Shown here one piece after another: positions 5,883 to 13,161 of a stretch of 64,000 nucleotides of DNA. The notes under the pieces were generated by a model, which had not been told where the DNA came from, searched no databases, and saw only the letters and a list, made by a program, of their open reading frames with translations. The position numbers were made by a program, and so were the translations under genes. How positions within the stretch are numbered: the first letter of the stretch is position 1; every line of letters begins with the position of its first letter. The stretch comes from Nevskia sp. (lineage in GTDB: Bacteria; Pseudomonadota; Gammaproteobacteria; Nevskiales; Nevskiaceae), in contig JAQGNU010000089.1 in the NCBI GenBank assembly GCA_028291645.1, positions 1-64,000 on the forward strand, in the 5' to 3' direction.

Positions 5883-7919
5883 TCATTTCTTAGCGTTCGA
5901 AGTCGATGTCGACGCATCCAGCGCCATCTTCGCAAACCGCGGATCATCCCGAATCGAATCCCAGATCGGGTCCAGTCGCAGCAATGCCGGATTGAGTCCC
6001 GCGGGAATTTGCAGCAGCTGTGGCAGCAGCGCGATCGCGGTGTCGCGATTGCCGGTCTGCGTGTAAACCTGCGCGAGCGCGATCTGCGCCACCGGCCCCT
6101 TGATCGCATCGTTGCGGTTTTTCTCGACACCTTGTGTCGCCGCCTTCTGCGCGGCGACCGCATCGCCGAGTCCGGCATAGGCCAGCCCGAGCGTTTGATA
6201 GCCGACGATCTCGGTGTGCTCCATCGCGTCCGGACTCTGCTGCAATACATGGATCAGGCGTTCGAAGCTGCGCTTGGCAGCGTCGCCATCGCCCGACCAT
6301 TTCTGTGCATAACCGAGATACACCAGATTCTGCAGGTCGCGCCCGACCAGTCGCGCGTCGTCGGACGGCAGCGAGGCCTGCAGCAGCTGTACCAGTTCAC
6401 CGTAGCGGCGGCGGTACATCAGTTGCGAGATGCGTGTGAGGCCGTTGACTTCATGCACATCGACTTGCGCCTTCGTCAGCAGCGACTCAGCGGTGTCGAG
6501 ATGGCCGAGGTTCTGTTCGATCTGCGCGAGGCAGGCGAAGGTGTTGGGTTCGTCGGGCGTGATCTGCAACGCGCGGTTGAGCAGCGCGCGCGCTTCGTCG
6601 AAGCGGCGCACGTAGTTGAACCCTTCGCAGCCAGCCGGCGCGATGATGCTGACGTTGCGCGGATCGCGGTCGATCGCCGTTCGGACATGCGCGAGCGCTT
6701 GATCCCAGTGGCCGAGCCGGCGTTCGACCAGGAACATCGAATGCAGGATCAGCGCATCGTTCGGCTGCTTTTCCAGTGCGAGCCGGAAATCCTCGAGCGC
6801 GCCGGGATAGTCGTGTTCCACGCGATAGAGGTAATAGCCGTGCGCGAGCAGCGCCTCGGCGAGGTCGGGCTGCAGCCGGCGCGCGGTCTCGGCGGCTTCG
6901 CGTACGGCCGCGGCGTTGCTGCGCGGCTGGTCGAGACCGTCGAAATAGAAAATGCTCATGCTGATCGCGGCCTGCGCCCAGGCCAGTGCGAACGCAGGAT
7001 CGAGCCGCACCGCTTCGAGGAAGTCGCCGACAGCGCTCGATGCAGATGCAAACGAGTACGACGCGGCGACGCGCGCGCGACCGCGCAGATAGGCTTCGTA
7101 GGCTGCAGTGTTGGTGGTCGGCTTAGCTGCAACCGCGGCCTTCTCGGCAGTGCTCAGTTTTGCGTTGAGCGCATCGGCCACGGCTTGTGCGACCTCGCCT
7201 TCGACGCCGAAAATGTCGTCGAGCTTGCGGTTGTAGCTCTCCGCCCACAGGTGTTCGTCGGTCGCCGCGCGGATCAGCTGCACGTTGATGTGCACCGCGG
7301 CGCCGGCCTTCTGCACGCTGCCTTCGAGGATATTGGCGACGCCGAGCTGGCGCGCGATCTCCGGAATGTTGCCGGGCGCGCTGCCGTAAGCTTGGGTCGA
7401 GGTGCGCGACACCGCGCGCAGCGCGCCGATCTTCGAAATCTTGGTCAGGATTTCGTCCTGCATGCCGTCGGCGAAGAAGGCGTTGTCGGGATCGCGGCTC
7501 AGGTTTGCGAACGGCAGCACGGCGATGGATTTGTCGTCGCCGCCGTTGAAATTCGCCAAGTGCGCGGTCTTGTTCAGCACCAGCTTGTCCGCCAGCAACA
7601 GCACCACTGCCAGCCCCAGCACGACGCTGATCCAGCGGTCCAGCTTGCGGCCGGTCTGGCGCGTGATCGATGCATCGGCGGCAATTTCGCTTTCCAGCTT
7701 CAGGCCTTGCGGCGTCAGCTCGTAGAACCAGGCGAACAGCAGTGCGGCCGGAAAGCCCAGCGCGATGGCGATCACGACAATCCGCACGACCCCGTTGGGA
7801 ATATCGAAAAACGGCAGCACCTGTGTGGCGATCTGCACCAGCAACCAGCCGCCGGCCGCATAGAACGCAGCCACCCGCAGCACATTGCGGCGCCGCAACT
7901 CCGATATGAAAAACTGCAT
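5883..7919 (-). CDS. TPR protein with N-terminal membrane segments and TolB/FlgO-like domain
   Basis: MQFFISELRRRNVLRVAAFYAAGGWLLVQIATQVLPFF, SIAVLPFANLSRDPDNAFFADGMQDEIL, then TPR-like repeats. Confidence 0.85.
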   Translation of the reverse strand: MQFFISELRRRNVLRVAAFYAAGGWLLVQIATQVLPFFDIPNGVVRIVVIAIALGFPAALLFAWFYELTPQGLKLESEIAADASITRQTGRKLDRWISVVLGLAVVLLLADKLVLNKTAHLANFNGGDDKSIAVLPFANLSRDPDNAFFADGMQDEILTKISKIGALRAVSRTSTQAYGSAPGNIPEIARQLGVANILEGSVQKAGAAVHINVQLIRAATDEHLWAESYNRKLDDIFGVEGEVAQAVADALNAKLSTAEKAAVAAKPTTNTAAYEAYLRGRARVAASYSFASASSAVGDFLEAVRLDPAFALAWAQAAISMSIFYFDGLDQPRSNAAAVREAAETARRLQPDLAEALLAHGYYLYRVEHDYPGALEDFRLALEKQPNDALILHSMFLVERRLGHWDQALAHVRTAIDRDPRNVSIIAPAGCEGFNYVRRFDEARALLNRALQITPDEPNTFACLAQIEQNLGHLDTAESLLTKAQVDVHEVNGLTRISQLMYRRRYGELVQLLQASLPSDDARLVGRDLQNLVYLGYAQKWSGDGDAAKRSFERLIHVLQQSPDAMEHTEIVGYQTLGLAYAGLGDAVAAQKAATQGVEKNRNDAIKGPVAQIALAQVYTQTGNRDTAIALLPQLLQIPAGLNPALLRLDPIWDSIRDDPRFAKMALDASTSTSNAKK

Positions 7920-8000
7920 CCCCGTCCCCTTTGATGGGGCTACTGTAGCGGTAACCGCATTCCGGTTGTGACTTTGGGCCGCATCGCGCGGCCGAACGGG
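7903..8000. repeat. Duplicated leader/promoter block, copy 1
   Basis: ~98 bp aligning to 9878..9975 with about 5 mismatches; spans the start codon of the TPR gene ending at 7919. Confidence 0.9.
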
Positions 8001-8032
8001 GCGACGCCCCCCTTTAGCTCACAGCGAAGCAC

Positions 8033-9817
8033 TCACGAACACGGCGTATCGAGCTTGAGCTGGCGACAGACGGCTGCAAAACGCGGATCGCTTTTGTAAT
8101 CGAGCAGGAACGGCGTTACCAGCAGCTGCGTCAGTCCGGAATCGCGGATGGCGTAGGCCTTGTCGAGCCATTCGAACATCCGCTGCGGATCCTTGCGCAG
8201 CGCATAGACCACGGCGACCTGGAACGCGCCGGTCACGCCGTCGCTGGTGATGAAGCGCTGCAGCGCCTGGTCTGCACCGGCGCTGTCGCCGCTGCGCTGC
8301 TGCGCCAGTGCACGTGCGTAGTTGCGCCAGAAACCCTCAGGCTCGCGCTCGGCATCGCGCAATGCGGCGGCAGAATCCCCGCGCAGCAGATCGACGGTGA
8401 CGAGATAGGCGTATTGATGCGATGCCGTTGGCTGCAGTTCGATGGCTTTCTGCAGCGTGGCGGCGGCCTCGTCCAGCTGACCGCGGGCCATCAGGATGCG
8501 TGCCAGGTTCAGATACGGCGGAACCACCAGCGGATCGAGCGCGATCGCCTTGCGCGTAACGGCATCCGCTTCGCTCAGCCGGCCTTCCGCAGCGAGCAGA
8601 TAACTGAGTGCGTTCTGCATTACCGAGTCGGTCGGCGCCAGCTCAACGGCGCGCCGGATTTCGACGCCCGCTGCCGGCAGGTCGAGATCCGGGGTCATCA
8701 ACACCCAGCCGAGTGCTTCGTGTGCTTCGGCGAGATCCGGTGCCAGCGCCAGCGCCTGCTGCGCCGCCGCGCGTGCGCGGGCATAGCCGTCGCCGACTTC
8801 ATCCGCATCCAGCCAGATCGCCGCCATGCCGCGCCAGATCCACGACAAGCGCGCATAGGCCAGCGCGTAACCGGGATCGAGCTGGATCGCCTGGTTGTAG
8901 TAATCCAGCGCCTTGCGGTAGTCCTCGAGCGTAAAGCGCCGACGGAAGAAATCGCCTTGCAGCAGGGCGTTGTAGGCGCCGAGGTTGGCGGTCTTGTACG
9001 CAGCCTGCGCCCGCTCGGTACTGCCGAGCAGACGCAGCTTGAGCTGGCTTGCCACCGCTTCGGCGATCTCGGTCTGCACGGCGAAGATGTCTTTCAACTC
9101 GCGATCATAGGTCTCCGACCATAGCTGATGGCCGTCATCCGCCTCGACCAGTTCGGCGACGATGCGCACGCGTTCGCCCTGCTTCAGCACGCTGCCTTCG
9201 AGCAGTTGCGCCACCCCGAGCTTCTGGCCGATGGTCTTGCTGTCTTCACTGCTGTTCTTGAAATGGAACGACGAACTGCGGCCGACCACCTTGAGCTTGG
9301 GAATCTTGGCCAGCACCGCGATCAGCTCTTCGGAAAGGCCATCGGAAAAATACTCGTTGGCCGGATCGCCGCCGGTATTCACCAGGGGCAGTACTGCGAT
9401 CGAGGGATTACTGTCCGCAGTGCGGTGCGCCGGCCGCGGCACCCAAGCCATGCGCTCGGCCGCGAGGTAAGCCAGTGCAATGAGCAACAGTCCGCCGAGC
9501 ATGACGTTGAGGCGGCGGTCGATGGGGCGTCGCCCGATACGGGTGGCGGCCGCTGCGCCGCTTGCCGGCACCTGCGCATCGGTCCGCACGATACCCTGCG
9601 GCGTGACATCGAATATCCAGGCGAGCACCAGCGCAACCGGAAACCCGGCGATCACCGTCAATACCAATATCTGCTGGACGACGTCGCCGATATGAAAGAT
9701 TGGCAGCACCTGCGTGACCACCTGCACTAGGAGCCAGCCGGCAACGCAGTACATCGCGCCGACCTTGTAGACGTGGCGACGCTGCAGTTCGGCGAAGAAC
9801 GACGGCTTGACGCTCAT
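8033..9817 (-). CDS. TPR protein with TolB-like domain, paralog of 5883..7919
   Basis: Start set at MSVKPSFFAELQRRHVYKVGAMYCVAGWLLVQVVTQVLPIF; SIAVLPLVNTGGDPANEYFSDGLSEELI; TPRs. The ORF track start at 9994 appears too far upstream. Confidence 0.85.
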   Translation of the reverse strand: MSVKPSFFAELQRRHVYKVGAMYCVAGWLLVQVVTQVLPIFHIGDVVQQILVLTVIAGFPVALVLAWIFDVTPQGIVRTDAQVPASGAAAATRIGRRPIDRRLNVMLGGLLLIALAYLAAERMAWVPRPAHRTADSNPSIAVLPLVNTGGDPANEYFSDGLSEELIAVLAKIPKLKVVGRSSSFHFKNSSEDSKTIGQKLGVAQLLEGSVLKQGERVRIVAELVEADDGHQLWSETYDRELKDIFAVQTEIAEAVASQLKLRLLGSTERAQAAYKTANLGAYNALLQGDFFRRRFTLEDYRKALDYYNQAIQLDPGYALAYARLSWIWRGMAAIWLDADEVGDGYARARAAAQQALALAPDLAEAHEALGWVLMTPDLDLPAAGVEIRRAVELAPTDSVMQNALSYLLAAEGRLSEADAVTRKAIALDPLVVPPYLNLARILMARGQLDEAAATLQKAIELQPTASHQYAYLVTVDLLRGDSAAALRDAEREPEGFWRNYARALAQQRSGDSAGADQALQRFITSDGVTGAFQVAVVYALRKDPQRMFEWLDKAYAIRDSGLTQLLVTPFLLDYKSDPRFAAVCRQLKLDTPCS

Positions 9818-9894
9818 GGCGTCGCCTGTGCGATCGGAAATCCAGATGCACTCGCGCGGATCGCGCGCCGCATCATCGATATGAAAAACCGCAT
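9814..9894 (-). CDS. Putative 26-aa upstream/leader ORF (MRFFISMMRRAIRASASGFPIAQATP)
   Basis: ATG at 9894..9892 aligns with the start codon of the paralog (MQFFIS); its TGA overlaps the ATG at 9817 (ATGA). Confidence 0.4.
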   Translation of the reverse strand: MRFFISMMRRAIRASASGFPIAQATP

Positions 9895-9975
9895 CCCCGT
9901 CCCCTTTGATGGGGCTACTGTAGCGGTAACCGCATTCCGGTTGTGACTTTGCGCCGGATCGCGTGGCCGAGCGGG
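9878..9975. repeat. Duplicated leader/promoter block, copy 2
   Basis: See copy 1; shares GCGGTAACCGC palindrome and CCCC-N6-GGGG hairpin. Confidence 0.9.
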
Positions 9976-10011: not shown

Positions 10012-13000
10012 TCAGCTCGTGGGATTTGAATCGTGCCCAATGCGTCGTCGATGGATAAGGAAGTAAGCGGCGGGCAAGAGCAACATCGAAAGAATCGGTG
10101 CGGTGATCATGCCGCCGACCATCGGCGCCGCGATGCGGCGCATGACCTCGGCGCCGGTGCCGCCTCCAAACATGATTGGCAGCAGGCCGGCGACGATCAC
10201 CGCGACGGTCATCGCCTTCGGGCGGACGCGCAGGACTGCGCCCTCTTCGATTGCTTCGGTCAAGTCGGCCTCGGAATGGAATCGATCGGTCCGGCGCCGC
10301 TTCTCGATGGCTTGATCAAGATAGATCAGCATGATCACGCCGAACTCGGCCGCGACACCCGCCAGCGCGATGAAGCCGATCGCCGAAGCGATCGAGAAGT
10401 TGTAGCCGAGGACATACAGCAGCCACAAGCCACCGACCAGTGCGAACGGCAATGTCCCCATGATCAACGCCGCGGAGACGAAACTGCGGAAGCTCAGGTA
10501 GAGCAACACGAAGATGATCAGCAGCGTGAATGGCACCACCAACTGCAACTTCTTGGTCGCCCGTTCCAGATATTCGAACTGTCCCGACCAGGCGATCGAA
10601 TAGCCCGGAGGTAGTTCGACCCGTTCGCTGACGAGCTTCCGCGCGGCGCTCACGTAAGAGCCGAGGTCTCGACCGCTGATGTCGACATAGACCCAGCCGT
10701 TGAGCCTTGCATTCTCGCTGCGCAGCTGCGGTGGTCCATCGGTGACGACGAGATCGGCAACTGCGCCGAGCGTGGTGGTCGCACCCGCTGCAGTGACGAT
10801 GGGCAGCACGCGCAGCTTGTCGATCGAGTCGCGCAATTCGCGCGGATAGCGAATGTTGATCGGGAAGCGCTGCAAGCCCTCGACAGTCTCGCCGACATTT
10901 TCGCCGCCGATGGCGAGCGCTACGACTTGCTGTACGTCGGCCAGACTCAAGCCGAAGCGCGCCGCACGCACGCGGTCGATATGGATCTCGACATAGCGAC
11001 CGCCCTGGACGCGCTCCGCATAGGCGGATCGCGTACCCGGCACGTCCTTGAGCACGGTTTCGACCTGTTCGCCAATGCGCTCGATGACCTTCAGATCAGG
11101 CCCCGCGATCTTCACGCCGACCGGACTCTTGATGCCGGTCGACAGCATGTCGATGCGATTGCGGATCGGCTGCACCCATAGATTGGCAAGGCCCGGAATG
11201 TTCAGCGCCGCATTCATTTCGTTGATCAGCTGATCCTGGGTCTTGCCGCTCGGCCACTCGGAGCGCGGCTTGAAACGGATCGTGGTTTCGAACATTTCCA
11301 GCCCTGCCGGATCAGTCGCGGTTTCGGCGCGGCCGACCTTGCCGAACACGCGCTCGACTTCCGGAAACTGCATCAGCATCTTGTCGGTCTGCTGCAGCAG
11401 TTGTGATGCCTTGTCGGCGGAAAGACCCGGCAATGCCGACGGCATGTATAGCAGATCACCTTCGACCAAGGGCGGCATGAATTCGCTGCCAAGATTGGCG
11501 ATGGGGACGACGCTCAGCAGCAACAGCAGCGCGGCGATCAGCAGTGTGGTTTTCGGAAAGCGCAACACCACGCTCAGCAGCGGACGATACAGCGCGATCA
11601 ACATCCGATTGAGCGGATTGCTGCGCTCATCGGGGATGCGGCCGCGGATGAAATAGAACATCAGCACCGGAATCAGGGTGACGGCGAGTCCCGCTGCAGC
11701 GGCCATCGAATAGGTCTTAGTAAACGCCAGCGGCCCGAACAGCTTGCCTTCCTGCGCTTCCAGCGTGAACACCGGCACGAAGCTCAGCGTGATGATCAGC
11801 AGGCTGAAGAACAGCGCGGGGCCGACTTCGGCCGCGGCATCGCCGATCAGCTTTGTCTGCTCGGCAATCGTCGGCTTGCGATCCGGATGCGCGTGATTCC
11901 AGGCTTCGACATGCTTGTGCGCGTTCTCGATCATCACCACCGCGGCGTCGACCATCGCGCCAATCGCGATGGCGATGCCGCCGAGCGACATGATGTTGGC
12001 GTTGACGCCTTGCCAGTTTATCACCGAGAAGGCCGCGACGATGCCAAGCGGCAAGCTGATGATGGCAACCAGCGCCGAGCGCAAATGGAACAGGAACAAT
12101 GCGCAGACCAGTGTGACGACAACGAACTCCTCGATCAGCCGGTCGCGCAAGGTGGCTACCGAGTTATGGATCAGTTCGGAACGATCGTAGGTCGGCACAA
12201 TCTCCACGCCTTTCGGAAGGCCTTGCTGCAGGCTTGCGATCTTCGCCTTCACCGCATCGATCGTCTCCAATGCATTCTTGCCGGCGCGCATGACGATGAC
12301 GCCGCCGACCGCTTCGCCCTTGCCGTCGAGTTCGGTAATGCCGCGGCGAATCTCCGGACCGATCTGAATCCTGGCGACATCGCCCAGCAGAATCGGCGTA
12401 CCACTCGCGCCGAGACCGACAGGCACCGTGCGGAAATCGTCGAGCGTTCTCAAATAGCCCGTCGCCCGTACCGCGTATTCCGCTTCGCCCAATTCCAATA
12501 CAGAGCCGCCGGTCTCGTTGTTCGAATCGCGCAGCGCCTGCTTGACCTTATCGATGCCGATGTTGAGGGCACGCATGCGATCGGGATCGAGCACGACTTG
12601 ATATTGCTTGACCAGGCCGCCGACGCTCGCGACCTCGGCCACGTTCGGCACGCTCTTCAGTTCGTACTTGAGAAACCAATCCTGCAGCGCACGTAGCTGC
12701 GAGATGTCGTAGTGACCGCCGCGATCGACCAGCGCGTACTCGTAAATCCAGCCGACGCCGGTGCCATCCGGCCCCAGCGTCGGCTTCGCCGACGGCGGCA
12801 ATCGACCGGTGACCTGATTGAGATACTCAAGCACGCGTGAGCGCGCCCAGTACAGATCGGTCTTGTCGTCGAAGATGATGTAGACGTAGGAGTCGCCGAA
12901 GAACGAATAGCCGCGCACCGTGCGTGCGCCGGGCACCGACAGCATCGTCGTCGTCAGCGGATAGGTCACCTGATCCTCGACCACCTGCGGCGCCTGGCCG

Positions 13001-13161
13001 GCGAACTCGGTGCGGATGATCACCTGGGTATCGGACAAATCGGGCAGCGCATCGAGCGGTGTCGATAGCGTTGCGTGCACTCCCCAAGCCGTGAGGATCA
13101 GTGTCCCCATGAGTACCAGGAAGCGGTTCTGGATCGACCAGCGAATCAGGGCGGCAAGCAT
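10012..13161 (-). CDS. cusA: CusA/CzcA-family heavy-metal RND efflux pump
   Basis: 1049 aa; [42 protein letters not shown] transmembrane architecture. Confidence 0.95.

Follow-up and report, generated by a model that had tools for sequence, protein, structure and literature searches.

The stretch of DNA that we analysed (the window) comprises positions 1-64,000 of contig JAQGNU010000089.1 from Nevskia sp. (GCA_028291645.1). On its minus strand lie, in this order, a cusA-type efflux gene (10012-13161), one copy of a short repeated block (copy 2), gene 2, the other copy of the block (copy 1), and gene 1 (Table 1). Both proteins have a hydrophobic N-terminal region, then TPR repeats that score above Pfam's curated cut-offs. 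The first-pass annotation had called them TPR/TolB-like. The TPR part of this description holds, and the TolB-like label is unconfirmed, because Pfam reported no TolB or other N-terminal domain in either protein. As had been claimed, the proteins have diverged beyond the block: they are 35% identical over 482 columns.

Table 1. Features of the leader copies and the two TPR genes, in positions of the window
Feature	Positions	Strand	Remarks
Copy 1 of the block: putative promoter and 5'UTR of gene 1, with its first 10 codons	7890..8000	-	93% identical to copy 2
Copy 2: counterpart of copy 1 in front of gene 2, with the relic start of another paralog	9865..9975	-	
Core of 61 bases, identical in both copies	7916..7976 (copy 2: 9891-9951)	-	
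Overlapping dyads AACCG-gaatg-CGGTT and GCGGT-t-ACCGC	7948..7967 (copy 2: 9923-9942)	-	directly upstream of the probable -10
TACAGTAG, probable -10 of copy 1	7940..7947	-	assigned by positional conservation
TACAGTAG, probable -10 of copy 2	9915..9922	-	
Relic short ORF, MRFFISMMRRAIRASASGFPIAQATP-stop, 26 codons	9814..9894	-	TGA 9816-9814 overlaps the gene 2 ATG (ATGA)
Gene 2: N-terminal membrane region and TPR protein, 594 aa	8033..9817	-	Pfam TPR matches
Gene 1, 678 aa: a mosaic paralog, of gX type up to residue ~118 and of another subfamily beyond it	5883..7919	-	

The block is a two-copy repeat

The block had been described as about 98 bp long with about five differences, and we counted exactly 5 mismatches between 7903-8000 and 9878-9975. 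It extends to 111 bp with 8 mismatches. The longest identical run is 61 bases, which has P ~0.011 if the 8 mismatches are placed at random. This unbroken core hints at constraint. It could reflect selection or a second, shorter conversion, instead of recency alone.

One stem of the block (CCCC-atcaaa-GGGG) was also said to lie just before the start codon. Only for gene 1 (ATG at 7919) is the start codon that follows the real one; the likely start of gene 2 is at 9817.

A search of the organism's own genome (a draft of 3.83 Mb in 234 contigs, 91% complete) found these two copies only; the next-best match was a chance hit of 16 bp. A dispersed repeat is thereby ruled out, as there are no copies at unrelated genes. 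In the relatives that we searched, the only convincing match was to the start-proximal 43 bases, at G006:C480. Among the loci examined, no comparable leader duplicates were found before other paralogs inside one genome.

Copy 2 contains the relic start of another paralog

The relic start in copy 2 is at ATG 9894 (MRFFIS...), and the likely start of gene 2 lies 77 nt beyond it. The relic reads ATGCGGTTTTTCATATCG, and its first codons match, at the DNA level, those of gene 1 (ATGCAGTTTTTCATATCG) and of gX, a gene from the G006 genome. In G006, gX is complete and lies directly upstream of the ortholog of gene 2, with a GTGA overlap, so that this genome has the arrangement leader-gX-gene2. The start region of gX resembles that of gene 1.

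In another genome (G001), the ortholog of gene 1 (L055 / L090, G001:C207) is preceded by a relic of its own, MRSFIRELRCRNVLRTAAFYGAAA-stop. This relic also ends in an ATGA overlap, and its leader contains TACAGTAG and aligns to copy 2 with 76% identity over 50 nt.

The overlapping stop and start codons (ATGA) are an arrangement for translational coupling. Of the 81 family genes that we examined, roughly one in three has this 4-base overlap between its start and the preceding reading frame, and the relic ORF ends on the start of gene 2 just as in many internal genes of the arrays. Unlike in the usual case, the upstream partner here is a relic of 26 codons and not a working gene, and the coupling is putative.

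The 44 nt between the first codons of the relic and gene 2 have no significant match to the 3' end of gX or of a deleted paralog. (They contain GATCCGCGC, a DPR-like motif.) A search downstream of gene 1 for a remnant of gene 2 found none.

Gene 1 is a mosaic

The first ~118 residues of gene 1 group with array-head genes (C51 of its own genome, and genes of G006 and G001). Residues 4-118 are 80-89% identical to gX from G006, and a search with that segment gave 85% identity to C51. From residue 119 onwards, gene 1 is closest mainly to G001:C207, G017:C11, and G006:C34; over the first 120 residues, these share only 42-65% identity with it. Correspondingly, the trees for the N-terminal and C-terminal parts of gene 1 conflict. 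The AU test rejects placing the N-terminal part with the orthologs of the C-terminal part (p 1.45e-5), and it rejects placing the C-terminal part with gX (p 1.8e-9). In this mosaic gene, a gX-type 5' end sits on the body of another paralog.

A gX-type gene is the candidate donor of the 5' part. The grouping of gene 1 with gX is itself not strongly supported (56 in one N-terminal tree and 84 in another). We found no close strain of this Nevskia sp., and the closest N-terminal relative has no more than 85% identity.

The genes themselves are far older than the copying of the leader. Gene 2 has orthologs in G012, G017, and G006 (61-64% identity). It and the body of gene 1 have distinct sets of orthologs in other genomes, with identities of 61-67%, as compared to 35% between the two. 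The orthologs of gene 2, and most orthologs of the C-terminal part of gene 1, are without a recognisable leader. That the leader was copied recently, and was not inherited from the common ancestor of the paralogs, is well supported by these comparisons.

The leader most likely contains a promoter

The motif TA[AC]AGTA (TAMAGTA) is found 28-34 nt before the start codon in all four array heads with a gX-type N-terminal part (4/4), and it is present in both relic leaders as well. It is also found ahead of unrelated genes of the same genome, as expected for a -10 element. (We rejected TAMAGTAG as a family-specific motif: it has 25 sites genome-wide, several of them before unrelated genes.) In this same genome (G000), there is a strong asymmetry between TAMAGTAG, with these 25 occurrences, and its reversed control, with 312. 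Although TACAGT is conserved in position, we found no consensus pair of -10 and -35 hexamers (sigma-70, spaced by 16-18 nt); a scan of the leaders for consensus promoters returned no promoter, and a good -35 is not visible. The assignment of the -10 therefore rests on its positional conservation. Most likely, the block is a promoter (TACAGT) together with a 5' end, and the promoter is likely shared by both genes, possibly with an operator dyad.

The three motifs that had been reported within the block are indeed all present in both copies, on the minus strand. They are GCGGTTACCGC (7958-7948 and 9933-9923), AACCGGAATGCGGTT (7967-7953 and 9942-9928), and CCCCATCAAAGGGG (7939-7926 and 9914-9901).

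Inverted repeats that differ from each other adjoin the probable -10 in the window (7948-7967) and in the L109, L084, L125, and L076 leaders. Elsewhere in the same genome, a TAAAGTA site around position 1500 of L156, on the reverse strand, lies between the arms of a 10-bp inverted repeat (AAGGTGAACC / GGTTCACCTT), and this looks like an operator over a -10.

The 5' parts of these paralogs are homogenised within genomes

We compared 60 paralogs, drawn from the genus and from one related genome, using the N-terminal 80 residues and 2000 label permutations. In the N-terminal part, two paralogs of one genome resemble each other more than do paralogs of different genomes (identity higher by 0.085; 0 of 2000 permutations), and fourfold sites show this excess as well (1 of 2000). 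No same-genome excess is seen in the C-terminal part (1909 of 2000 and 211 of 2000). Because the silent-site excess is confined to the N-terminal part, it speaks against an explanation by protein constraint or codon bias alone.

In several pairs from G002, the N-terminal residues are 94-97% identical and the bodies are 29-37% identical, with identity falling near residue 100. Individual loci at which the first ~100 codons are homogenised, on bodies that belong to old and distinct subfamilies, include L045, L121, L098, L031, and L067 in G002. The same homogenisation, with a sharp drop near codon 100, occurs at L058 and L074 in G012 and at L055, L079, and L049 in G001.

We suggest that the front ends of these paralogs have been exchanged repeatedly within the family while the remainder diverges, and that the present locus is one visible case. 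More tentatively, and with some doubt on our part, the TPR arrays of the genus may form a cassette system, in which a 5' module that bears the promoter (promoter, membrane anchor, and about 100 codons) is repeatedly recombined onto varied TPR bodies. Our literature search found no publication that deals with these TPR proteins in this group.

Alternative explanations

The first-pass annotation favored a shared regulatory leader with mutually exclusive hairpins, conserved since the paralogs diverged. As a cis-regulatory RNA, such a leader would control both genes (by acting as an anti-antiterminator or by sequestering the start site) and would be kept by selection. In its favor are the core of 61 identical bases, given the 8 mismatches in the remainder of the block, and the overlap of CCCC-ATCAAA-GGGG with the probable Shine-Dalgarno sequence AAGGGG. 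Nevertheless, we consider it improbable. Besides the orthologs being mostly without the leader, the leaders fold no better than shuffled sequences (z-scores between -0.8 and +0.5: -0.02, 0.48, 0.11, and -0.77), and they have no Rfam family match and no terminator-like sites. The two overlapping hairpins are upstream of the probable -10, so they are probably outside the transcript. If TACAGT is the -10, the CCCC/GGGG stem would straddle the transcript start, and this stem is not conserved in the leaders from G006, C51, or G001. The block does resemble attenuator or riboswitch leaders in having short inverted repeats upstream of a start codon; unlike them, it has no excess stability, terminator, or family match, and its overlapping repeats probably lie upstream of the transcript. 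The dyads might instead act in the DNA: a regulator would bind next to the -10, and selection on the operator and promoter would keep the core identical. In 5 of 6 gX-type or related leaders, the -10 (TAMAGT) is directly adjoined by a perfect dyad of 4 bp or more, as compared to ~17% of random positions and 5 of the 22 other TAMAGTAG sites in the genome, and the arms differ in sequence between leaders yet remain complementary. But this test (P ~0.0007) is post hoc and involves six partly related leaders, short GC-rich dyads are common, and the variable dyad sequence means that no single regulator is implied. We view an operator as possible but rather unlikely. It would be compatible with copying of the leader, whatever the mode of copying.

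Adjacent paralogs with a common leader could also result from a plain, recent tandem duplication of the whole gene, from gene 1 to gene 2, with fast divergence of the proteins afterwards. This is barely credible given the separate orthologs of the two genes, and the ortholog trees refute it. An assembly artefact has slightly more to recommend it, since the genome is a draft in 234 contigs and an exact repeat of 61 bases could mislead an assembler. However, the flanks of the two copies differ, both genes are intact, and a comparable relic and similar mosaics are found in genomes that were assembled separately. We consider an artefact very unlikely.

A model for the history of the locus

We think it quite probable that the promoter and 5'-end module of the array-head paralog gX was copied in this lineage, by homologous recombination or by tandem duplication. 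Copying is supported by the start and first codons in copy 2 that match gene 1 and the G006 gX, by the position of gX directly upstream of the gene 2 ortholog in G006, and by the separate relic in G001. The AU rejections, the within-genome excess in the N-terminal part only, and TAMAGTA in the gX-type heads support it as well. The mosaic nature of gene 1, the relic start, the restriction of the block to two copies, and the recurrence in relatives are shown by our data. Of the two earlier proposals for this block, gene conversion or a shared leader, the first stands in substance, as copying by recombination or duplication within the paralog family, of which gene 1 is itself a mosaic member; the second does not stand as an RNA-hairpin leader. 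Conversion acting directly between these two genes is only a candidate route.

According to the copying model, one copy of the gX module would now head gene 1, as the leader and ~118 codons joined to a body from another paralog. In the other copy, upstream of gene 2, most of gX would have been deleted, leaving the leader, the start codon, and ~10 codons. In one order of events that would fit, leader-gX-gene2 was duplicated in tandem, after which the first gX was lost and the second was fused with the body of gene 1. If TACAGT is the -10, then transcription would start near 7935 and 9910. Gene 2 may be translated partly by coupling, via the ATGA overlap of the relic ORF, and both genes would be under one shared regulation through the block.

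Gene conversion between adjacent paralogs has been described for PE_PGRS17 and PE_PGRS18 of mycobacteria (PMC1762029). As in our case, tandem bacterial paralogs swap one stretch and the remainder stays distinct. Unlike in PE_PGRS17/18, the exchanged stretch here includes the promoter and a relic start, and such exchange is seen repeatedly, in different arrays and genomes of a TPR family. Multiple conversions have been reported between the bacterial release-factor genes RF1 and RF2 (PMC4530459). These too are ancient paralogs with converted segments. In our case, the segment is the 5' part of membrane/TPR genes together with the DNA upstream of it, and the paralogs group strongly by genome.

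Taken as a single locus, this is ordinary evolutionary tinkering. What looked like a conserved regulatory RNA becomes a traceable record of promoter transfer between paralogs, in a family whose 5' part, unlike its TPR part, shows concerted evolution inside a genome. If the cassette reading is true, then expression and anchoring would be kept uniform among the paralogs of a genome while the part that senses or binds diversifies, and deletions that pass the head promoter to the next gene would be part of the same process. The family may be of use for studying how bacteria hold many paralogs under one control while altering binding.
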